The notes below the pieces were generated by a model, which made no database searches, was not told the DNA's origin, and saw nothing but the letters and a program-made list of their open reading frames with translations. Shown here piece after piece: positions 318 to 9,511 of a stretch of 10,989 bases of DNA (within the stretch, counting starts at the first letter, position 1; each line of letters opens with the position of its first letter). Position numbers and translations under genes: made by a program. This DNA is from Methanothrix sp. (GTDB lineage Archaea; Halobacteriota; Methanosarcinia; Methanotrichales; Methanotrichaceae), in NCBI GenBank assembly GCA_012798025.1, contig JAAZNX010000051.1, forward strand, positions 1 to 10,989, written 5' to 3'.

Positions 318-980
318 ATGTTTGAATCCTGTAAAATATGCATTGCTGGACTTCCAGGAATTGGAAGCGTGGGCAAGGTGGCTTGCGAATATCTTGCCAC
401 GGCGCTGGAATCCAGCACATATAAGTCCTTTTTTTCGCGTGTTTTTCCAGCGCAAGTTATGGTCTCAGATGGACTGTCTGAGCTTTTGCACGCCGAACTG
501 AAGGTCCCCAAAGACAGAAAAAATATGTTAATCCTTTCTGGCGACGCCCAGCCGCAGGATGTTGTGGGAATGCATTGGCTGGCTGCAGAGATCCTTGAAA
601 CCCTGAAGGAAGAAAAAGTGACTGACGTCATAACCTTGGCAGCTTATGTTGGAGACACAAAGGAGAAAGTGCTGGGCGTGGCCAGCGACTTTGACAGCGC
701 TGCGGCCTTAACGCAAAATAAAATTCCACTCTTGAGGACAGGTGCCATCGGAGGCCTGAACGGCCTTCTGGCCGGGCTTGCGCCACTGCATGAAATGCGC
801 GGCTTTTGCCTGCTTGGAACCAGCTCAGGAGCAGACCTTGTGGACATAAGAGCAGCGACGAGCCTATTGGAGGCATTAAAAGAACTGCTTCATCTCGATT
901 TGGAGATATCTCTGATGGAGCCGGAGACTGAGAGTCCTGTGGAGTTCGCTCCCGAAGACTTGGACATGAACTATCGGTGA
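318..980 (+). CDS. PAC2-family protein (archaeal proteasome-assembly-chaperone-like)
   Basis: This 220-residue protein begins with the glycine-rich signature of the PAC2 family: KICIAGLPGIGSVGKVACEYL at residues 6-26. Further family-like blocks are LILSGDAQPQ (71-80) before a helix, VTDVITLAAYVGD (101-113), and the TGAIGGLNGLL stretch (141-151). The family includes eukaryotic proteasome assembly chaperones and archaeal PbaA/PbaB-type proteins; many archaeal members have no assigned role. The tail from residue 200 is acidic and probably disordered, ending in MNYR, a penultimate Tyr reminiscent of the HbYX motif that docks into proteasome alpha rings, although the preceding residue is Asn rather than hydrophobic. 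The start at 318 fits because the domain begins within six residues. No strong ribosome binding site precedes it; only GGTAGG (301-306), partly in the repeat, is purine rich. It may be co-transcribed with the gene ending at 297. Confidence 0.85.
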   Translation: MFESCKICIAGLPGIGSVGKVACEYLATALESSTYKSFFSRVFPAQVMVSDGLSELLHAELKVPKDRKNMLILSGDAQPQDVVGMHWLAAEILETLKEEKVTDVITLAAYVGDTKEKVLGVASDFDSAAALTQNKIPLLRTGAIGGLNGLLAGLAPLHEMRGFCLLGTSSGADLVDIRAATSLLEALKELLHLDLEISLMEPETESPVEFAPEDLDMNYR

Positions 981-992
981 ACTCCTGATGTA

Positions 993-1014
993 GGGGGCTT
1001 CCCGCTCAGCCCCC
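993..1014. terminator. hairpin between convergent genes, likely terminator
   Basis: A perfect 7-bp stem (GGGGGCT 993-999 with AGCCCCC 1008-1014) encloses an 8-base loop and is followed on the plus strand by TTT. It lies between the plus-strand stop at 980 and the minus-strand gene that ends at 1006. The TGA stop of that gene (1006-1008) straddles the loop and the stem. Archaeal termination depends mainly on T-runs, so the hairpin may serve transcript 3'-end stability as much as termination. Confidence 0.55.
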
Positions 1015-2679
1015 TTTGCTCCTGCAAGTTAAATCAAGCAGCACGCCATAGTCTATGTTCTCCAGGAACCTCTTCTCTCTGGAGTCTTTCGTCCCGAACC
1101 TTGCGATATTGATGGCGTCCCTATCTGGTGGAGATGAAAAACGGGCGATCTTTTCCGGATAGCGGGAGTAACTGCACAAAAGGCTCTCGCCGATAGCATG
1201 CAGCCTGCCGCAGTTCCCCCATTGATTGGACACTGCCAGGTGCATCTGCTCGCCCAGCCTTGCCTCCCATATGAACCTGGCTTTAGCATCGTCCCAGAGG
1301 GCAGGCACACAGAGCATGTCTGCGCCAAGCTTTGCCAGAGAATCTGCAGCCTCAGGAAACATGAGGTCGTGGCCGAGGAGCATTCCGATCCTGGCGAAGG
1401 GAAGGTCAAAGGCTGCAAAACCGCAGTCGCCGAGACATGCCCAGCTTTTATCACGCGAGGTGAGGTGAACAGCTCTGTACTTGCCCAGGATCCCGTCGGG
1501 ACCAACCAGGACAGAGCTGTTATAGAGCCCCTTCTCATCCAGCTCAGCCATACCAAAGACTATGAAGAGATCCTTTTCTTGCGCTTTTCTGGCAAAAAGG
1601 TCTGTAGTCTTCCCTGGTATCTCCTCCGAGCAGCTCTCCGCCTCCTCTGGGCTGAAAAGTGCTCCTGAGGTGGAGAGCTCCGGCAGAACGACGAGGTTGA
1701 TCTTCTGTCCGTCCTTGGAAGCCCTGGCCACTGCATCGTCTATGAGCCTAAATGCCCTTAACACATTGGCCGCCGCATCCAGAGGCTCAGGGCAGAACTG
1801 CAGTGTTGCGGCCGTAAAATCGGCTGCATGCGGCAAACCCAGAAGGAACTCGATATTGATATGGGAGTAGGGGTCCAAAGTTATGTTTCCATAGCATTTG
1901 GGCCGTCTGCAGCTCAAGGCATTGTGCATCGTGATGCTGCTTGAGGGCAGCGTGCAGTAAATGATGGTATCCTCAGGAGAGCTGGCCTGCACTATCGCTT
2001 CTCCCCGAGGATCTACGACGAAGGATTGCGCACTATTGCAGTCCATGACCCTGTCTTTTCCTGTCCTATTGCATGCAAGGATGTACATGCCGTTTTCCAG
2101 TGCTCTGGCCCGCCAAAATTTTTCAGGGTTGTGGTGCTCAGGAGGCCAGTTGGCCGGAACCAGCAGGATCCTCGCCCCTTGAAGGGCCGCGATCCTGGCA
2201 GGTCTGTAGGAGTACGAGTCGGCGCAAATCAACAGGCTAATCGGTCCAAACTCGGTCTGGACCACATCAACTGGTATATTGCCCTTTGCAGCCCAGAGAT
2301 TTTCCCTGAAGGCCGGGGATAGCTTGCGATGTCTGGCCACAACAGTTCCCGTCGGCCCCAGCAAGGCAGCTGAATTGTAAAATATGCCCGTTCCACAGTC
2401 GCGCTCGGCCATGCCGATGCAGATGTAGCAGCCGTACTCCTTTGCAATCCGACCGAAGGCCTCAGTCGTCGGCCCGGGAATGCTCTCAGCAAGAGGTGCA
2501 ATCTCCCTTCTGCTTTCAAAGGCGTAGCCTGTGGTGGCAAGCTCAGTATTCACGATGATTTGGGAGCCTTCTTGAGCTGCCTCTTCATTCAAAGCTAATA
2601 GCCTGGCTAAATTTTTATCTTTGTCCTTCCAGGAAATCGACGCATGAACGAGTGCGACCTTCAACTCTTCGCATGGCAT
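1006..2679 (-). CDS. double-domain carbon-nitrogen hydrolase (nitrilase superfamily), second domain lacking catalytic residues
   Basis: The 557-residue protein is about twice the usual CN-hydrolase length and contains two tandem nitrilase-fold domains (about 5-245 and 285-555). Domain 1 keeps the triad: E46 in NTELATTGYAF, K119 in RHRKL, C152 in LLICADSY, plus an accessory Glu (E126) and the family-typical RARALENGMYILACN block at 190-204. It is probably a cytosolic amidase or nitrilase acting on a C-N bond of unknown substrate. In domain 2 the first Glu survives (E334 in LPELSTSGA), but the Lys position is Ala (A403 in GKYRAVHL), the Cys position is Gly (G436 in MLLGHDLMFPE) and the accessory Glu is Asp (D410). 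Domain 2 therefore looks like a pseudoenzyme, perhaps structural, since nitrilases work as dimers or larger assemblies. ATG 2679 fits the domain start; only a weak GGGG lies upstream. It is transcribed divergently from the CobN-type gene. Confidence 0.88.
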   Translation of the reverse strand: MPCEELKVALVHASISWKDKDKNLARLLALNEEAAQEGSQIIVNTELATTGYAFESRREIAPLAESIPGPTTEAFGRIAKEYGCYICIGMAERDCGTGIFYNSAALLGPTGTVVARHRKLSPAFRENLWAAKGNIPVDVVQTEFGPISLLICADSYSYRPARIAALQGARILLVPANWPPEHHNPEKFWRARALENGMYILACNRTGKDRVMDCNSAQSFVVDPRGEAIVQASSPEDTIIYCTLPSSSITMHNALSCRRPKCYGNITLDPYSHINIEFLLGLPHAADFTAATLQFCPEPLDAAANVLRAFRLIDDAVARASKDGQKINLVVLPELSTSGALFSPEEAESCSEEIPGKTTDLFARKAQEKDLFIVFGMAELDEKGLYNSSVLVGPDGILGKYRAVHLTSRDKSWACLGDCGFAAFDLPFARIGMLLGHDLMFPEAADSLAKLGADMLCVPALWDDAKARFIWEARLGEQMHLAVSNQWGNCGRLHAIGESLLCSYSRYPEKIARFSSPPDRDAINIARFGTKDSREKRFLENIDYGVLLDLTCRSKGG

Positions 2680-2735
2680 GATATCAGTGTCCCCGCTATA
2701 ACCTAAAAACCATTTGATACGTGCTCACTAAATGA

Positions 2736-2750
2736 TCGAGGATCTCTCGA
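2736..2750. repeat. short inverted repeat in divergent promoter region
   Basis: TCGAG (2736-2740) and CTCGA (2746-2750) are perfect 5-bp arms around a 5-base centre, abutting the putative BRE/TATA box for the CobN-type gene. It could be an operator for a dimeric regulator, but arms this short can arise by chance. It sits in the 169-bp gap (2680-2848), which otherwise holds only AT-rich promoter-like sequence. Confidence 0.3.
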
Positions 2751-2762
2751 AAGCTTTATTTA
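2748..2762 (+). promoter_or_regulatory. putative archaeal BRE/TATA promoter for the CobN-type operon
   Basis: CGAAAG (2748-2753) followed by CTTTATTTA (2754-2762) resembles the purine-rich BRE plus TATA arrangement of euryarchaeal promoters. Transcription would begin near 2784-2788, leaving a leader of about 60 bases before ATG 2849. A second AT-rich candidate, TTAAATTAAAA at 2779-2789, lies closer to the gene. Read on the other strand, the same AT block (TTAAATAAAG) could drive the nitrilase-like gene, so the region may be a shared bidirectional promoter. No start site has been measured, so the assignment is inferred from sequence alone. Confidence 0.45.
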
Positions 2763-2848
2763 ATCAACTTAACTAGCCTTAAATTAAAAATTGTTTTGTT
2801 ATGCGAAAGTCAGCCTGATCAATAAAGATAGCGGGATGGATCAATACG

Positions 2849-5800
2849 ATGAAGGTCAAGATTGCCTATGTCACAACACAGGAAGCAAGCGACGTCTTCC
2901 CTCTCATATCCGCACTAAAAGAGCTGATCCGCCAGAAAGGAGAGGTGGCAGAGGTGGCCGTCAGATCTGGCGAGGATCTCAAGGATGCTGTCCTAAGGGA
3001 GCAGTTCGAGCGGTTTGCCAGAGGCTGTCACCTGGTCATCTTCAATTTGCACGGCGGAAAGAAGAGCCTTCCCTCCTTCGACGAGCTGATCCAGGGGCTG
3101 CAAAACAGCGGCGCCTCGATCTTTGCTCAGTCGGCCTCAAATGAGCCCGAGATCGAGCTCACGAGGCTGTCGACTGTCGATGGCGAGGTCTACAGGAAAG
3201 TGTCCCAATATCTCGATTATGGCGGGCGGGAAAACTTCTACAACCTCCTCCTCTACCTGGCCAATCAGTTCATCGGGGCGGATTATGCTTTTTCCGAACC
3301 CATGAGGCCCACCTGGGAGGGCATCTATCATCCAACATTCGATCACGTTCCGACCTTGGATGAGTATCTGAAGAGCAAGTACGTAGCCGGTCGGCCGACG
3401 GTCGGCCTGTGGTTCTACCAGAGCCTTTGGCGGGCGGGAAACACTGCCTTCATCGACAGTCTGATCGCTGAGATCGAAGGGCAGGGCGCAAATGTCATTG
3501 CAGTCTTCCTTCACGCCCTCAAAGACGTCGAGCGGGGAACGAAGGGTGCTGAGTGGGTGGTAGACAACTTCTTCATGAAGGACGGACAGCCTCTCATAGA
3601 CGTCCTGATCAGCACCCTCATGTTCTCGCTCTCCATCAAGCCATGGGCGGGATCGGACAAAGACGAGGCTGAGGAGGTCGCCAGATCTGAGCAGTGGTTT
3701 TTGAAGAGGCTGAATGTTCCAGTCCTGAAGGCCCCAGTGACCTACAACTCTCCTGCAGAGTGGATGCAGTCGCTGCAGGGCTTAAGCCCCCTGGACATCT
3801 CCATGGGGATCGCCATGCCGGAATTTGACGGCATGCTGATCGCGGTTCCTGTGGCAGCCAGGGAGAGGACAGATACAGATCCGCTGACTGGAGCCAGGAT
3901 CATCAGGTTTGAGCCGCTGCCCGAGCGCATCTCCAAGATCGTGCGGCTGAGCCTGAACTGGGCGAGGCTTCGGCGTATTCCCAATTCCCAGAAGAAGGTG
4001 GCAATCATCTTCCACAACTACCCTCCCCGGGACGATCGCATAGGCTCGGCCTTTGGGCTGGACTCGCCCGTATCGGTCTTGAACATCATGAAGGACATGA
4101 AGGACGCGGGATATACGATTGAGAGGATGCCAGAGAGCGGCCAGGCCCTGATAGAGGATGTGAAGAGCAGGCTCACCCTTGACCGACGCTGGAGGAGTCC
4201 GGAAGAGCTGGCAAGAAGGGCGATCGACTCGGTCTCGGAAAAAGAATATGAAGCCTGGTTTGGGCAGCTCCCAGTGGCAGTGCAAGAGAAGATGACCTCT
4301 GCCTGGGGAGAGGCACCGGGAAAGCTGTTCGTTCATAAGAAGAACCTGATAATTCCGGGCCTCATCAATGGCAATATCTTCATCGGCCTTCAGCCCCCGC
4401 GCGGCTTTCTGGAGGACCCGGCAGCCATCTACCACAGCCCCGATCACCCCATTCCCCACCACTATTATGCCTACTACCGTTGGATTCGGGATGTATTCCG
4501 GGCCGATGTCATCATGCACATCGGAAAGCACGGCTCTCTGGAATGGCTTCCGGGAAAGTCCGTGGGGCTTTCCCAGTCGTGCTTCCCAGACATAGCCATA
4601 TCCGATCTTCCCAACATCTATCCCTACATCATAAACAATCCTGGCGAGGGAACTCAGGCCAAGAGGAGGAGCTACTGCTGCATCATCGATCATCTGGTTC
4701 CCGTGATGCACAACGCCGATTCCTATGACGAGATGGCAGAGCTGGAGGTGATGCTCACCGATTACTATCAGGCCGCCTCTGAGGACCCATCCAAGCTGCC
4801 GACGCAAAAGAAGATGATCTGGGAGAAGGTCTGCGAGGCCAAGCTGGACCACGACCTTGAGACGGACGAAGAGGTGGCATTCTCGGACTTTGACAAATTC
4901 CTGGAGAGGCTGCACGAGTATCTACACGAGATGGCAGACACTCAGATCAGGGACGGACTTCATATCCTGGGCGAGCCGCCCGAAGGCTCGCGTCTGGACG
5001 AGTTTCTGGTTGCGCTCACGAGGCTTGCCAATGGCCAGGTGCCATCTCTCCGGCAGTCTCTGGCAGAGGCCATGGGCTACGATTACGATTATCTTTTGTC
5101 AAACCGGGGGCGGATCGTTTCCGGGTCGAAGAGCTGCGGACAGGTGATTGAGGATTTAAACGCCCTCGCCCTGCGGCTGGTGTCAGGGCTTCATCAGCGG
5201 GACTTTGCCTTTGAGACGATTCCCGAGCTGATGAAGGAGATCCTGGGAAAGAGAAACCCCAAGATTGAAAAGGTGCTGGATTACATAGCCACGACGCTCG
5301 CGCCCAACATCGATGCTACAGTGGACGAGCTTTCAAACACACTTTGTGCCTGCAGCGGTGGTTTTGTCTCGCCCGGGCCCTCTGGAGCCCCCACACGTGG
5401 AATGGCGGACATACTGCCCACTGGAAGGAACTTCTACTCAGTCGATCCGCAGGCGATTCCATCCCAGGCGGCCTGGGAGGTAGGCGTTGCCCAGGCAGAC
5501 GCTCTGCTCAAGCGTTACCTGGAGGATGAGGGGCGCTATCCCGAGTCTCTGGGAATCGTTATCTGGGGCAGCCCTACGATGCGAACGAAGGGCGATGACA
5601 TCGCCGAGGTCCTATGCCTCATGGGCGTTCGCCCGGTCTGGGAGGAGAGGAGCGGAAGAGTTACAGGAATCGAGCTCATTCCCATGGAGGAGCTTCAGCG
5701 TCCCCGCATAGACGTTATGCTGCGAATCAGCGGATTCTTCCGGGACGCATTTCCCAATATCGTTCATCTCGTAGACAGGGCTGTGGAGCTGGTGGCAGAG

Positions 5801-6655
5801 CAAAAAGAGCCGCCTGAGAAGAACTTCCTGGCAAAGCATGTATCTGCAGACATTTCCGAGAAGACGGCCGCTGGAGTCGATGGAGAACAGGCCAAGACCC
5901 TGGCCTGCTACCGCATATTCGGCTGCCGCCCTGGAGCCTACGGTGCAGGCGTCTCGGACGCCATCGACTCCAAGAACTGGAAGGATGAGAAGGACCTGGC
6001 AGAGATCTACGTAAAATGGGGCGGCTATGCCTACGGTCGCAAAAACTTCGGAGCGACTGTTCCCGATGAGTTCCGAAGACGCCTCAGCCGTCTCGACCTG
6101 ACCGTCAAGAACGAGGACACCCGCGAGTACGACATGCTGGACGGCGATGATTTCTACTCCTATCACGGCGGGATGATCGCAGCCGTCAAGGCGCTGAGAG
6201 GCGAGCTTCCTCGTTCGTACTGCGGTGACAGCTCCGATCCTGATCGCGTGAAGACCAGGAGCACAGTCGAGGAGACCAAGCACATCTTCCGTGCCCGCAT
6301 CCTCAACCCCAAATGGATCGAGAGCATGAAGCGCCACGGCTACAAGGGCGCGGGCGACATCTCGAGGATGGTGGACATCGCCTTCGGCTGGGATGCCACT
6401 GCAGAGGTCCTGGAGGACTGGATGTACGAGGAGCTGGCGAACAGGTATGCTCTGGACAGGGAGATGCAGGAGTGGCTGAAAAAAGTGAACCCCCACGCAC
6501 TGCAAAACATCGCCGAGCGGCTGCTCGAGGCAGTGGAGAGGGGGATGTGGCAGGCGTCTGATGAGATGAAGGAGGAGCTTCGGGACGTCTATCTGGAGAT
6601 CGAGGGGTGGATCGAGGGCGATCAACAACAGGCGGATGCCAATCCAGGGAGTTAG
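2849..6655 (+). CDS. cobN: CobN/BchH-family metallochelatase large subunit, CobN type
   Basis: At 1268 residues this matches the usual length of the CobN/magnesium-chelatase H family, the porphyrin-binding subunit that works with AAA+ subunits to insert Co2+ or Mg2+ into tetrapyrroles. Family signatures appear in order: HIGKHGSLEWLPGKSVGLS from His557; IINNPGEGTQAKRRS around 594-608; PGPSGAPTRG at 842-851 followed by ILPTGRNFYSVDPQ; GCRPGAYGAGVSDAI near 1029-1043; and MLDGDDFYSYHGGM from Met1096. The PSGAPTRG form is typical of CobN rather than ChlH/BchH, which usually have a PGGDP-type block, so cobalt and the corrinoid pathway are the likelier role. No CobS/CobT, ChlI/ChlD or other corrinoid gene is visible here; methanogens often carry several CobN-like paralogs of uncertain metal, so specificity is open. 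Translation starts at ATG 2849 with no strong Shine-Dalgarno. The stop is TAG, followed 18 bases later by the radical SAM gene. Confidence 0.88.
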   Translation: MKVKIAYVTTQEASDVFPLISALKELIRQKGEVAEVAVRSGEDLKDAVLREQFERFARGCHLVIFNLHGGKKSLPSFDELIQGLQNSGASIFAQSASNEPEIELTRLSTVDGEVYRKVSQYLDYGGRENFYNLLLYLANQFIGADYAFSEPMRPTWEGIYHPTFDHVPTLDEYLKSKYVAGRPTVGLWFYQSLWRAGNTAFIDSLIAEIEGQGANVIAVFLHALKDVERGTKGAEWVVDNFFMKDGQPLIDVLISTLMFSLSIKPWAGSDKDEAEEVARSEQWFLKRLNVPVLKAPVTYNSPAEWMQSLQGLSPLDISMGIAMPEFDGMLIAVPVAARERTDTDPLTGARIIRFEPLPERISKIVRLSLNWARLRRIPNSQKKVAIIFHNYPPRDDRIGSAFGLDSPVSVLNIMKDMKDAGYTIERMPESGQALIEDVKSRLTLDRRWRSPEELARRAIDSVSEKEYEAWFGQLPVAVQEKMTSAWGEAPGKLFVHKKNLIIPGLINGNIFIGLQPPRGFLEDPAAIYHSPDHPIPHHYYAYYRWIRDVFRADVIMHIGKHGSLEWLPGKSVGLSQSCFPDIAISDLPNIYPYIINNPGEGTQAKRRSYCCIIDHLVPVMHNADSYDEMAELEVMLTDYYQAASEDPSKLPTQKKMIWEKVCEAKLDHDLETDEEVAFSDFDKFLERLHEYLHEMADTQIRDGLHILGEPPEGSRLDEFLVALTRLANGQVPSLRQSLAEAMGYDYDYLLSNRGRIVSGSKSCGQVIEDLNALALRLVSGLHQRDFAFETIPELMKEILGKRNPKIEKVLDYIATTLAPNIDATVDELSNTLCACSGGFVSPGPSGAPTRGMADILPTGRNFYSVDPQAIPSQAAWEVGVAQADALLKRYLEDEGRYPESLGIVIWGSPTMRTKGDDIAEVLCLMGVRPVWEERSGRVTGIELIPMEELQRPRIDVMLRISGFFRDAFPNIVHLVDRAVELVAEQKEPPEKNFLAKHVSADISEKTAAGVDGEQAKTLACYRIFGCRPGAYGAGVSDAIDSKNWKDEKDLAEIYVKWGGYAYGRKNFGATVPDEFRRRLSRLDLTVKNEDTREYDMLDGDDFYSYHGGMIAAVKALRGELPRSYCGDSSDPDRVKTRSTVEETKHIFRARILNPKWIESMKRHGYKGAGDISRMVDIAFGWDATAEVLEDWMYEELANRYALDREMQEWLKKVNPHALQNIAERLLEAVERGMWQASDEMKEELRDVYLEIEGWIEGDQQQADANPGS

Positions 6656-6673
6656 GCATCTGAGACATCTTCA

Positions 6674-7744
6674 ATGATCGATGAAAAACCCGCACTTCTG
6701 GCTTTATCCGTGACCGGAGACTGCAACCTTCGCTGCAGCTACTGCTATGCCCGTGGCGGCGAGTCGAGCGCCTCGATGAGCTGGGTCACTGCCAAGCGGG
6801 CCGTCGACGTCATGGCGCAACGCTTTCCCAGTTTCAAGATCCAGTTCACAGGCGGCGAGCCTCTACTTAACCTTGGCCTGATCGAAAGGGCAGTGGACTA
6901 CCTTGATGAGCTGGGCCTGCGAGTCCCCTGCCAGGTTCAGACCAACGCCACCCTCATCATCCCCGATGTTGCCGCAAAGCTGAAGAGCCTCAAGATCGCA
7001 GTAGGCGTGAGCCTGGATGGGCCTGCTCTGGTGAACGACGCTCTGCGGCCTTTTCCAGACGGCAGAGGATCGACAGGGTCGGCACTGAAGGGGATTTTTG
7101 CCCTGCGAGAAGAAGGCATCAGGGTGGGCGCTACATGCGTCCTCTCCAGCGCAAACGCAGGGGCGCTTGCGGGACTGGTGGACCTGCTGAGCTATCTTGG
7201 AAACGTGGAAGGAGTCGCCATGGACCTCCTCCGGCCAGTTGGCAGGGCAAGCCGCTCAATGCAGCCCGAAGCCACTATGGCAGCCAAAGGCATTGAGGAG
7301 GCCATAAAACGCGCTGATCGTATTGCAGAGATGGGCGGACGAAGGATAAGATTCCGTGAGATTGAGCGGATGAAGGGCACGCTGTGTCGTGGCGAAAAGA
7401 GGCTTCATCACTGCTATTTCGATTCATGCAGATCCTTGGTTGTGCTGGCCGATGGCAGATCTTACGTCTGCCCATCGCTGCTCAATGAGAATCTTGGTTT
7501 GGGAGATATCATGGCACCTGGTTTTGCAGATGGACTCTTGGATCGAATGGCTGCAGCACGCCGCCTGGTGCAAGCACCTCAAGTATGCCGAAACTGCCCC
7601 GATCGATGGCTGTGCGGAGGGCCGTGCCTGGCTCATTATGTCGCTGGTTTAAATTTGGATATCGAGTGTCTCGCAAAGAAGGTCTTCATGAGATATGCCA
7701 GAAAAATGGCGGAAAAAGATCGAAGGCTATCTCTGAGCACCTAG
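6674..7744 (+). CDS. radical SAM protein with SPASM domain
   Basis: The 356-residue protein opens with the radical SAM cluster motif CNLRCSYCY (Cys17, Cys21, Cys24) and the SAM-binding GGEP at 60-63, then SLDGP (113-117). The C-terminal third carries a full seven-cysteine SPASM pattern: C247-X13-G-X4-C266, then C305-X2-C308-X5-C314-X3-C318, then C332, with an extra C252. Such domains hold two auxiliary Fe-S clusters and occur in sulfatase-maturase-like and peptide-modifying enzymes, and in related form in heme-pathway enzymes such as AhbC, AhbD and NirJ. The substrate cannot be read from sequence; no small precursor peptide was evident nearby. It begins 18 bases after the CobN-type gene, in the same frame and without a clear ribosome binding site, which suggests coupled translation and a shared pathway. 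Its TAG stop overlaps the stop of the convergent Hsp20 gene. Confidence 0.88.
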   Translation: MIDEKPALLALSVTGDCNLRCSYCYARGGESSASMSWVTAKRAVDVMAQRFPSFKIQFTGGEPLLNLGLIERAVDYLDELGLRVPCQVQTNATLIIPDVAAKLKSLKIAVGVSLDGPALVNDALRPFPDGRGSTGSALKGIFALREEGIRVGATCVLSSANAGALAGLVDLLSYLGNVEGVAMDLLRPVGRASRSMQPEATMAAKGIEEAIKRADRIAEMGGRRIRFREIERMKGTLCRGEKRLHHCYFDSCRSLVVLADGRSYVCPSLLNENLGLGDIMAPGFADGLLDRMAAARRLVQAPQVCRNCPDRWLCGGPCLAHYVAGLNLDIECLAKKVFMRYARKMAEKDRRLSLST

Positions 7745-8199
7745 TCGACCCGCACTTTCTGGGCATTTATTACTACCAATTTAGGCAGGTGAACCTCGAG
7801 TATGCCGTCCTTGAAGCTGGCCTTGATTTGCTCTGGTTTGACCTCTACTGGCAGCTTGAGCTCTCGCTTCTGGCCGATGGGGCTGATCTCCCTGCGCAGA
7901 TATTTTCCAGCTCGTGGGTTGGCCTTGGTCTCGACGTAAAGGCTGTCCTCCGTAGCCCTCAGGTCGATATTCTCTTTGCTTGCGCCTGGCAGAGCCACAA
8001 GGGCAATCAGCTCTTCATCGGTATCCATAAGATCAACGGCTGCCAAGTCGTAGCCCTTGGACTCACCTAAGTCGCAGCTCATCTCTCCCAAGATCTTTTT
8101 TGCGACCTGGCTGGCCTGGCTTGACATCCTGGCAGCCTCGACTGCAGCCTTGCCGATCATGCGTTCCAGATCGCTAGTGCCTGAAGAATCGGATCTCAT
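7741..8199 (-). CDS. Hsp20/alpha-crystallin-family small heat-shock protein
   Basis: From ATG 8199 the product has 152 residues, typical for a small heat-shock protein, an ATP-independent chaperone that holds unfolding proteins in large oligomers. A variable N-terminal arm (1-50, mostly helical and Ala-rich) precedes an alpha-crystallin domain (about 53-140). The domain includes LIALVALPGASKENIDL, ELKLPVEV, and the hallmark ASFKDGILEVHLPK at 127-140. The C-terminus ends KVRVD, where V-R-V could serve as the I-x-I-type anchoring motif. The frame stays open to another ATG at 8271, but that start would overlap dihydroorotase by 50 bases and add 24 residues encoded inside it, so 8199 is preferred. 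The gene begins 22 bases after the dihydroorotase stop and is probably the last gene of that operon. I see no separate heat-shock promoter. Confidence 0.87.
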   Translation of the reverse strand: MRSDSSGTSDLERMIGKAAVEAARMSSQASQVAKKILGEMSCDLGESKGYDLAAVDLMDTDEELIALVALPGASKENIDLRATEDSLYVETKANPRAGKYLRREISPIGQKRELKLPVEVKPEQIKASFKDGILEVHLPKLVVINAQKVRVD

Positions 8200-8221
8200 G
8201 CTCAAAAATAAGGCCTTGTTC

Positions 8222-9511
8222 TCATAAAACCCTTTGCATCCTCTGGAAACGGCCAAAGCCAGGACTGACATTCAGATCTCCATCATAGACCACAGTGCCT
8301 CTGACCAGGGTCATTTGAGGAAATATGGCCTCCTTTCCCTCATAAGGCGTCCAATCGGCGCGGCTGTGCAGATGATCGGCGTTTATCTTCCGGACGTTCT
8401 TGGTGTCCACTATCACCAGATCTGCGTCCCTACCAGGCTCGATGGTGCCCTTGCCTGCCAGCCCAAATATCCTCGCAGGTTTTACAGCAGTCGCATCCAC
8501 CAGTCGCTCGAGGCTGATGAGATTGCGTCTCACTGAAAAGAGCATCATGGGCAGCATAGTCTCAACTCCCGGAACGCCTGCAGGCGCATCCCAGATGTCA
8601 TCTCTCTTCTCCTCTGGTAGGTGAGGCGCGTGGTCCGAGGCCAGAGCGTCGATAGTTCCATCACGCAGGCCTGCCCAAAGAGCGTCACAGTCCGCCTGGC
8701 CACGCAGCGGTGGATTCATCTTCAGAAAGGTGCCCTGTTGACGGTAGTCCTTTGTATTGAAGAGGAGGTGATGAAGGGCTACCTCACAGCTCGCCTCTTT
8801 GCCGCTCATCTTTGCCGACCTCACGAGACTCAATCCCAGTCCAGTGCTGAGGTGACAGATGTGCAGTCGGTCCGACCATGCCAGCACTTTTTCGATTGCT
8901 TTAGCCTCTGCCAGAGCAGGCCTGGCCATGGAGTAAACCTGCGGATCATGAGAGCTCTTCAAGGGCTCGGTCTTCTCCCTGACCACTGAGCCGTCCTCGG
9001 CATGAACAGTTGCCAGCATTCCTGCTTTTCGGATCTCCTCCAAGACGATTTTTAGCTCCTCGTCGCTGTGCTCGTAGGTGAAGATCTCGCCTATGGCCGC
9101 TGCCCCGGCTCCTGCCAGCTCCTCGATTCTGCCTGGGCCCCCGTTGATGCAGAAGTCCACTACCGATCGGTTCCGGGCGAGGTCCAGCTTCATCTCAAAT
9201 GATCTGGCGTCCAAGGTCTTTGGATCGGTGTTTGGCTGGTCCACAACCGCAGTCACGCCACCTGCAGCCGCGGACAGTGAGCCGCTCAGCCAATCCTCTT
9301 TGTAGTCCTGCCCAGGTTCGCGGAAATGAACGTGGGCATCGATGGCACCTGGGAGCACCAGCATTCCCATGGCATCGATCTTCTCGTCTGCCCTATGGGA
9401 GCCGCCAAGGGCCAACACTTTGCCGTCTTTGATCCAGACATCGATGGTCTTCAGGCCCGCATGAGTAAAAACGCGGCCATTCAAAACCGCCAGATCAAAG
9501 TTTATATCCAA
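8222..9511 (-). CDS. pyrC: dihydroorotase, third step of pyrimidine synthesis
   Basis: This 429-residue amidohydrolase interconverts N-carbamoyl-L-aspartate and dihydroorotate. Metal ligands and substrate residues are visible: DAHVHFREPG (H60, H62, R64), the QPNTDP block around N94, VHAEDGS (H170), ICHLST (H220), ASDHAPH (D293), then VPGVETMLPMML. The position that in many dihydroorotases is a carboxylated Lys appears to be Glu142 (IGEIFTYE). A D-hydantoinase or allantoinase is the main alternative, but DHAPH plus GVPGVET favours dihydroorotase. Initiation is unusual: an in-frame TGA at 9518-9520 limits the start to TTG 9511 or a codon downstream, and no ATG exists before Met48. It overlaps the PF04008 gene by 17 bases, indicating translational coupling, and is followed closely by the Hsp20 gene. 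Confidence 0.9.
   Translation of the reverse strand: MDINFDLAVLNGRVFTHAGLKTIDVWIKDGKVLALGGSHRADEKIDAMGMLVLPGAIDAHVHFREPGQDYKEDWLSGSLSAAAGGVTAVVDQPNTDPKTLDARSFEMKLDLARNRSVVDFCINGGPGRIEELAGAGAAAIGEIFTYEHSDEELKIVLEEIRKAGMLATVHAEDGSVVREKTEPLKSSHDPQVYSMARPALAEAKAIEKVLAWSDRLHICHLSTGLGLSLVRSAKMSGKEASCEVALHHLLFNTKDYRQQGTFLKMNPPLRGQADCDALWAGLRDGTIDALASDHAPHLPEEKRDDIWDAPAGVPGVETMLPMMLFSVRRNLISLERLVDATAVKPARIFGLAGKGTIEPGRDADLVIVDTKNVRKINADHLHSRADWTPYEGKEAIFPQMTLVRGTVVYDGDLNVSPGFGRFQRMQRVL

Follow-up and report, generated by a model that had tools for sequence, protein, structure and literature searches.

A CobN-type chelatase gene paired with a radical SAM gene in Methanothrix: probable core of a corrinoid-scavenging module of anaerobes

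Introduction

Why does a methanogen carry a gene for a CobN-type chelatase subunit directly beside one for a radical S-adenosylmethionine enzyme? The question is raised by a 10,989-nucleotide stretch of Methanothrix sp. DNA (hereafter the window), one contig (C173) of a 1.74 Mb genome in 234 contigs with a completeness of 87.65. On its plus strand, a 1268-residue class I chelatase large subunit of the CobN type (2849..6655) is followed, after an intergenic gap of 18 bases (6656..6673), by a 356-residue radical SAM (rSAM)/SPASM protein of an undescribed family (6674..7744). A first-pass annotation made from the sequence alone had singled out these two open reading frames (ORFs), both of which we confirm, and had suggested that they form a dedicated module that handles a tetrapyrrole. 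Our answer, which we hold to be rather probable, is that the two genes form the core of a module with which anaerobes scavenge corrinoids (B12 family), and that rSAM would there work with a true cobaltochelatase on imported corrinoids.

Results

The CobN protein

The window CobN matches PF02514 with 1418.6 bits and the CobN model TIGR02257 with 1096.3, above its cut-off of 822.05; it also lies narrowly above the cut-off of the BchH model TIGR02025 (865.8 against 829), and below those of the other five CobN models matched (NF004646, NF008973, NF004643, NF004645 and NF004644). Its best solved relative is CobN (7c6o, 915 bits), followed by ChlH (553) and HmuS (393). In a quick IQ-TREE phylogeny of 70 rows, with SH-aLRT support only and after removal of 4 of 74 rows (one duplicate, two cut at stretch ends and one near-duplicate), all 31 of the CobNs that abut an rSAM fall into one clade of 53 rows with a support of 98. 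This clade also holds 18 CobNs of module-bearing genomes and four from plasmid-borne B12-type loci, those of Spirosoma, Deinococcus and Halobaculum with annotated B12 genes and that of Streptantibioticus without annotation. Outside it stand BchH (L158), HmuS (L159; one sequence on a long branch), two membrane-linked CobN-like proteins, the window genome's five other full-length paralogues and eight further copies from module-bearing genomes. The clade residues of the window CobN are W566, Q603, D1101 and D1182, the last being present in 53 of 53 clade rows and in none of the 17 rows outside. A tree of 26 rows, without HmuS or BchH, likewise sets the linked and B12-locus CobNs apart from four paralogues (100/100). 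Because the rSAM-linked CobNs as a clade of their own received an approximately unbiased (AU) test p of 0.313 (26 rows), the nesting of B12-locus CobNs among the linked ones in the larger tree is not established. As judged by these sequence comparisons, the window CobN is best read as a true cobaltochelatase subunit from the clade of B12-synthesis-locus CobNs; it does not group with HmuS, BchH or its own paralogues.

The window genome has eight CobN-type places, six of them full-length; in G002, from the same genus, eight CobN-like places exceed the threshold, and this CobN type is present there in four close copies. In two other loci (L160, L163), CobN-like proteins adjoin MotA/ExbB-type and DUF2149 genes and TonB receptors; the Runella protein of this set lies near hydrogenase maturation genes and is perhaps nickel-related.

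Recurrence of the pair

A genome scan retained 80 loci, with CobN present in six and in none of the other 74. CobN abuts rSAM in Desulfovirgula, Phascolarctobacterium, a Clostridiaceae strain and Desulfofundulus, and lies farther from it in a Treponema and an Actinomycetes metagenome-assembled genome (MAG). At 279 bits or more, the rSAM family is found in 8 of 26 genomes of the window's genus; it occurs in 10 of 392 genomes of the phylum, 12/113 in the class of Desulfovirgula (which we take to be Desulfotomaculia), 52/200 in that of Phascolarctobacterium (presumably Negativicutes), 9/391 in that of the Clostridiaceae strain (four of them weak), 1/248 in the spirochaete class (the centre itself) and 4/296 in the actinobacterial phylum (three of them weaker). 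A close CobN (at least 56% identity) is encoded by 9 of the 26 genus genomes, and rSAM accompanies it in eight of these and in none of the other 17 (Fisher's test, ~6e-6; the test ignores shared ancestry, and several of the genomes are incomplete).

We annotated 64 loci: nine from Methanotrichaceae, four from an archaeal family (f8, which we guess to be Archaeoglobales-like), 11 from the class of Desulfovirgula, 30 of the 52 found in the class of Phascolarctobacterium, five from Clostridia, one from the spirochaete and four from Actinomycetota. In two of them (L198, L219) the rSAM coordinates come from the search of the Phascolarctobacterium class, since ORF calling missed the gene, and in L179 the adjacency of the pieces was read from L021, which lies on the same contig. 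CobN lies within 150 bp of rSAM in 37 of the 64 loci, among them all nine from Methanotrichaceae, so that the adjacency holds in close relatives, and it is found somewhere in the fetched stretch in 53. Because the adjacency recurs across phyla, we regard the pairing as beyond chance. Moreover, the identities of CobN and rSAM correlate (r = 0.93 over 47 loci; 0 of 2000 permutations), a figure to which shared species history contributes, and in L149 a joint transfer is likely, since both genes group with the class of Phascolarctobacterium. Conserved adjacency and co-occurrence thus support the earlier suggestion of a dedicated CobN-rSAM module.

Cobalamin riboswitches

Cobalamin riboswitches were found in 34 of the 44 bacterial loci scanned (of 51), at cmscan scores of 62-125 bits (gathering score, 31.5). 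Two of the 34, L223 and L225, come from extensions of the fetched stretches; L223 lies immediately ahead of the L206 cluster and L225 ~5 kb past L205. As a control, eight hand-picked loci of other SPASM rSAM proteins (136 kb) yielded no cobalamin riboswitch. In 20 of 26 switch-bearing loci traced, rSAM lies inside a co-directional run behind the switch (gaps of at most 600 bp); in L142 it is the first gene after the switch, with CobN directly following, and in L148 the switch precedes other genes and not rSAM. These data suggest a demand for the module when cobalamin runs short.

A precursor peptide was also sought among small ORFs (22-110 amino acids within 9 kb of rSAM), a search that could miss very short or overlapping ORFs: the only widely shared candidates (in 28 and 27 loci) overlap the riboswitch and were rejected, and the search thereby recovered the switch independently.

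An operon of similar make-up is known from Dehalobacter restrictus. Its operon-2 is reported to hold FepBCD/BtuCDE, two CbiZ, CobN, Mg-chelatase subunits and a cobalamin riboswitch; under corrinoid starvation the transcript of its first gene is reported to rise 346-fold and its proteins 46-fold on average (PMC4285132). Its importer, CbiZ, CobN, Mg-chelatase-type subunits and riboswitch all have counterparts among the bacterial relatives described here. The Acetobacterium-like cluster L223/L206, whose nearest named homologues are from Acetobacterium, combines the operon-2 gene types and a riboswitch with an rSAM gene between ChlI and CbiZ.

The radical SAM family

The window rSAM matches PF04055 and carries the radical SAM [4Fe-4S] cluster motif C17xxxC21xxC24 (residues 17-24; 6722..6745, plus strand) and seven further cysteines at 247, 266, 305, 308, 314, 318 and 332 (SPASM region, residues 247-332; 7412..7669, plus strand). 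All three motif cysteines and all seven SPASM cysteines are invariant in the 25 aligned rows, the window row included. Among the best 25 of 67 NCBIfam models matched, the protein stays below every cut-off: it scores 106.8 against a cut-off of 518.7 for nif11, 104.1 against 340 for PapB and 68.6 against 425 for SCIFF, while the models of AhbC, AhbD and NirJ give 82.9 against 650, 66.6 against 500 and 58.6 against 515.45. The kinship with AhbC, AhbD and NirJ that the first-pass annotation had raised is not supported, since these models score below those of several peptide maturases. The rSAM tree gives the family as a single clade of 61 rows (support 98) that excludes one outgroup each of the AhbC/NirJ, SCIFF, nif11, anaerobic sulfatase maturase (anSME) and TIGR04083 types; the outgroups stand on long branches, and the AhbC/NirJ-type one (L099) is itself under the cut-offs of those models. 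An AlphaFold2 model (mean pLDDT 93.1) is closest in fold to SPASM enzymes; AhbC, AhbD and NirJ are absent from the best fold matches listed, to which we attach no weight, and since solved structures may not cover these three, the ranking is weak evidence.

Homologues of the protein number at least 2167, scored among the best 7999 candidates by shared words, and many are general SPASM proteins; the named full-length ones at 73-76% identity are from Methanothrix sp. The f8 archaeal matches (176-222 bits) and three from Actinomycetota (207-227 bits) were retained, as they fall inside the family clade. The f8 proteins (L137-L140) are shorter, those read terminating shortly beyond residue ~260; most of the SPASM cysteines are gone, yet the linkage to CobN persists. 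The four weak matches among the nine of the Clostridia class (174-190 bits) were excluded from the 64 loci; the two fetched (L210, L211) have no CobN and are placed among SCIFF/nif11-type maturases.

Neighbouring genes

Neighbours in the 64 loci were named by similarity to reference proteins, with types confirmed by Pfam on examples; stretch lengths differ among the loci, and the assignments of ABC proteins, substrate-binding proteins (SBP) and TonB-dependent receptors may include generic transporters. With that scope, ChlI or ChlD is found in 41 loci, SBP or FecCD in 46, and CbiZ, CbiR-like or CbiK in 29 (singly, CbiZ in 24, a CbiR-like TIM barrel in 8 and CbiK in 5). Others are Nit (20), TonB receptors (19), ABC-2 permease-like proteins (16), NifD/K-like (14) and NifH-like (10) proteins, Gate permeases (5) and FmdE (5). 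CbiR is reported to be a cobamide-remodelling enzyme of the AP endonuclease 2 superfamily (PMC7733943), and we infer that the PF01261 proteins of these loci are CbiR. The nitrogenase-like genes (NifH, NifD and NifK types) occur in the clusters L183 (11033-14397), L177, L214, L216, L220, L221, L208 and L209, and may encode an uncharacterised nitrogenase-like corrinoid reductase; the L183 protein of the NifH type stays below cut-off with both the NifH model (365) and the CfbC model (364.5).

The first-pass annotation had seen no AAA+ or corrinoid genes beside the pair. This holds inside the window and misleads beyond it, as the same genome has a ChlD-like gene on contig C218 (83% to that of G001) with an ABC-2 exporter next to it, and an importer with a ChlI-like gene on contig C186, and as relatives have ChlI/ChlD and CbiZ in the vicinity of the pair. 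In G001, rSAM is followed, ~0.9 kb downstream and in the same orientation, by FecCD, ABC, ChlD and ABC-2 genes.

Divergent to CobN, the window encodes a two-domain CN-hydrolase of the amidase/nitrilase type (1006..2679, minus strand; PF00795 in two stretches). Its first domain has the Glu-Lys-Cys triad intact, and the second has Gly for Cys in all eight two-domain copies. The gene sits in the same place in five of the nine Methanotrichaceae loci (two others are too short to show it) and, at 53% identity, directly upstream of CobN in L141 and L143; CbiZ follows beyond it in G004, G001, G351 and G305, where the window has PAC2 instead. Because it recurs next to the pair or CbiZ in relatives, this CN-hydrolase is very probably part of the module. 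The divergent intergenic region (2680..2848) contains, as judged by eye, the likely cobN-rSAM promoter, with a TATA-like TTTATTTAA at 2755-2763.

FmdE-family genes lie near rSAM in L141, L143, L145, L148 and L179, all of the Desulfovirgula class. A Gate-domain permease, possibly a metal or corrinoid transporter, lies near the pair in L139, L140, L137, L142 and L147 (PF07670 confirmed on L139). Just downstream of rSAM in L148, a cbi-biosynthesis-like gene run (649-8289, by eye) stands behind a cobalamin riboswitch.

Discussion

We assign the module to corrinoids because cobalamin riboswitches, CbiZ, Btu/Fec-type importers and the CobN clade all point to them. External corrinoids would be imported by a Btu/Fec-type transporter; CbiZ, in some relatives with a CbiR-like protein, and the CN-hydrolase might then cut back the nucleotide loop and the amide side chains. 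The rSAM enzyme, together with the NifHDK-like reductase in some lineages, would alter the corrin ring, and this change would let CobN-ChlID set or exchange the central cobalt, so that metal-free, wrongly metallated or altered corrinoids become usable. In the Methanothrix of the window, the ChlI/ChlD AAA+ partners encoded elsewhere in the genome would drive CobN. Purple sulfur bacteria grown without cobalt are reported to produce cobalt-free corrinoids, which suggests that metal-free corrins occur in nature (PMC6771967).

Two known types of CobN-superfamily system invite comparison. Late-insertion B12 synthesis uses a CobN that resembles the window type in its clade and clade residues, and AAA+ partner-like genes are present in the window genome as well; the window type differs in its rSAM partner, in having import and salvage neighbours instead of late-insertion cob genes, and in sitting in anaerobes whose CbiG_N implies early insertion. 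The heme de-chelatase HmuS is also a CobN-superfamily protein reported to be tied to tetrapyrrole uptake (PMC12583661). It stands, however, on a separate branch of our tree and acts on heme and not corrin; the one hmu locus viewed has no annotated ChlI/ChlD or rSAM, and no hmuY/hmuR neighbours were found among the window ORFs scanned. On the rSAM side, AhbC, AhbD and NirJ share the SPASM-type C-terminus and the tetrapyrrole context, whereas the window protein is far below their cut-offs. PapB, nif11 and SCIFF maturases and anSME are nearest to it by profile and fold; the window family, however, reaches none of their cut-offs, comes without a precursor peptide in the search described above and stands in a B12-controlled chelatase context. 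Salvage operons of the operon-2 type are already known; the titles and abstract openings listed in our literature searches give no account of this rSAM family, of its tie to a true CobN across domains or of the tie to NifHDK-like genes.

Several observations weigh against a corrinoid-scavenging module built on this pair. CbiG is a mark of the early-cobalt pathway, and CbiG_N was found in 77 of the 80 carriers tested (of 89 found), as it was in 7 of 14 control genomes; the carriers therefore probably insert cobalt early, and CobN looks redundant for de novo synthesis. A salvage-side cobaltochelatase is the most economical reading. This rSAM seems dispensable to the CobNs of B12-synthesis loci, as no such gene is annotated in the loci viewed, and further CobN-like copies outside the clade occur in some module loci or genomes (e.g. 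L150, L172, L204). The pairing has its gaps: G003 has a close CobN, in two partial pieces, and no rSAM; in 11 of the 64 loci the fetched stretch, in some cases a short contig, is without a CobN; and a related rSAM (L012 7998-8876, 37% identity) lies in a Methanothermococcus MAG whose 1.1 Mb genome has no CobN match. The window itself lacks importer, ChlI/D and CbiZ among its own genes. No riboswitch was found by cmscan in 10 of the 44 bacterial loci (L213, L207, L203, L221, L147, L146, L199, L202, L177 and L220), nor in the four archaeal loci scanned (the window, L132, L137 and L139). The profiles and folds nearest to rSAM are those of peptide or protein maturases, and the word 'radical' is absent from the main text of the operon-2 paper (PMC4285132).

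These points leave room for other explanations, of which a harvest of cobalt is one that we think unlikely and yet worth spelling out. Here the module would strip foreign corrinoids of their cobalt, as HmuS does heme of its iron, with rSAM and the nitrogenase-like reductase loosening the ring, the cobalt feeding the cell's own early insertion and the carcass leaving via the ABC-2 exporter. Freed cobalt could be used by nearly all carriers tested, given their CbiG_N; ABC-2 permease-like genes and CbiK are present in 16 and 5 of the 64 loci, and de-chelation has been reported for HmuS, a CobN-like protein (PMC12583661). Against this, CobN groups with the CobNs of B12-synthesis loci and not with HmuS, the ChlI/ChlD motors are present as in insertion, and cobalt corrins are reported to resist cobalt removal without destruction of the ligand (PMC6771967). 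We are similarly doubtful that rSAM acts on one of the module's own proteins (CobN, ChlD or the binding protein) and not on the tetrapyrrole, as anSME acts on a sulfatase: its nearest profiles and folds would fit such a role, but no clear target stands out, since 49 CobNs of module-bearing genomes share 191 conserved positions and just two of these, W156 and G729, are missing from every one of the four CobNs of B12-type loci.

The module occurs in many bacteria that are not known to make F430, which counts against a non-corrin tetrapyrrole cofactor, be it an F430 variant, a heme derivative or something new. An EMBO J paper does call the functions of many archaeal CobN-like proteins unclear, and the L183 NifH-like protein reaches 364.5 bits with the F430 model CfbC, below its cut-off of 402. 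Set against the riboswitches (34 of 44), CbiZ, the importers, the CobN clade and the induction of a like operon by corrinoid starvation, this leaves F430, heme or a wholly new cofactor unlikely, indeed very much so in our estimate, and the F430 variant or unrecognised cofactor entertained by the first-pass annotation gives way to corrinoids. Least credible of all is that the two genes stand together by chance or for shared transcription only: no other known corrinoid gene is adjacent in the window, but linkage across several phyla in differing gene orders, co-occurrence and co-divergence speak strongly for a functional tie.

We therefore return to corrinoid scavenging as the preferred account. 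A bolder version of it, which we hold to be unlikely, is that rSAM and, in some lineages, nitrogenase-like reduction let CobN-ChlID take the metal out of imported corrinoids, or exchange it, while the corrinoid stays intact; the classical CobN of B12 synthesis would then be an offshoot or sister of this anaerobic machinery.

The proposed module, under B12 control in bacteria, is shared by methanogens, a spirochaete, Actinomycetota and Bacillota, the last including Acetobacterium-like acetogens and the class of Phascolarctobacterium, and would give one subgroup of CobN a home. It also frames a paradox, namely that anaerobes with an apparent early-cobalt pathway retain a late-type cobaltochelatase, usually near an rSAM gene. 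The answer bears on the competition for B12 in guts and digesters and on the chemistry of the corrin ring.

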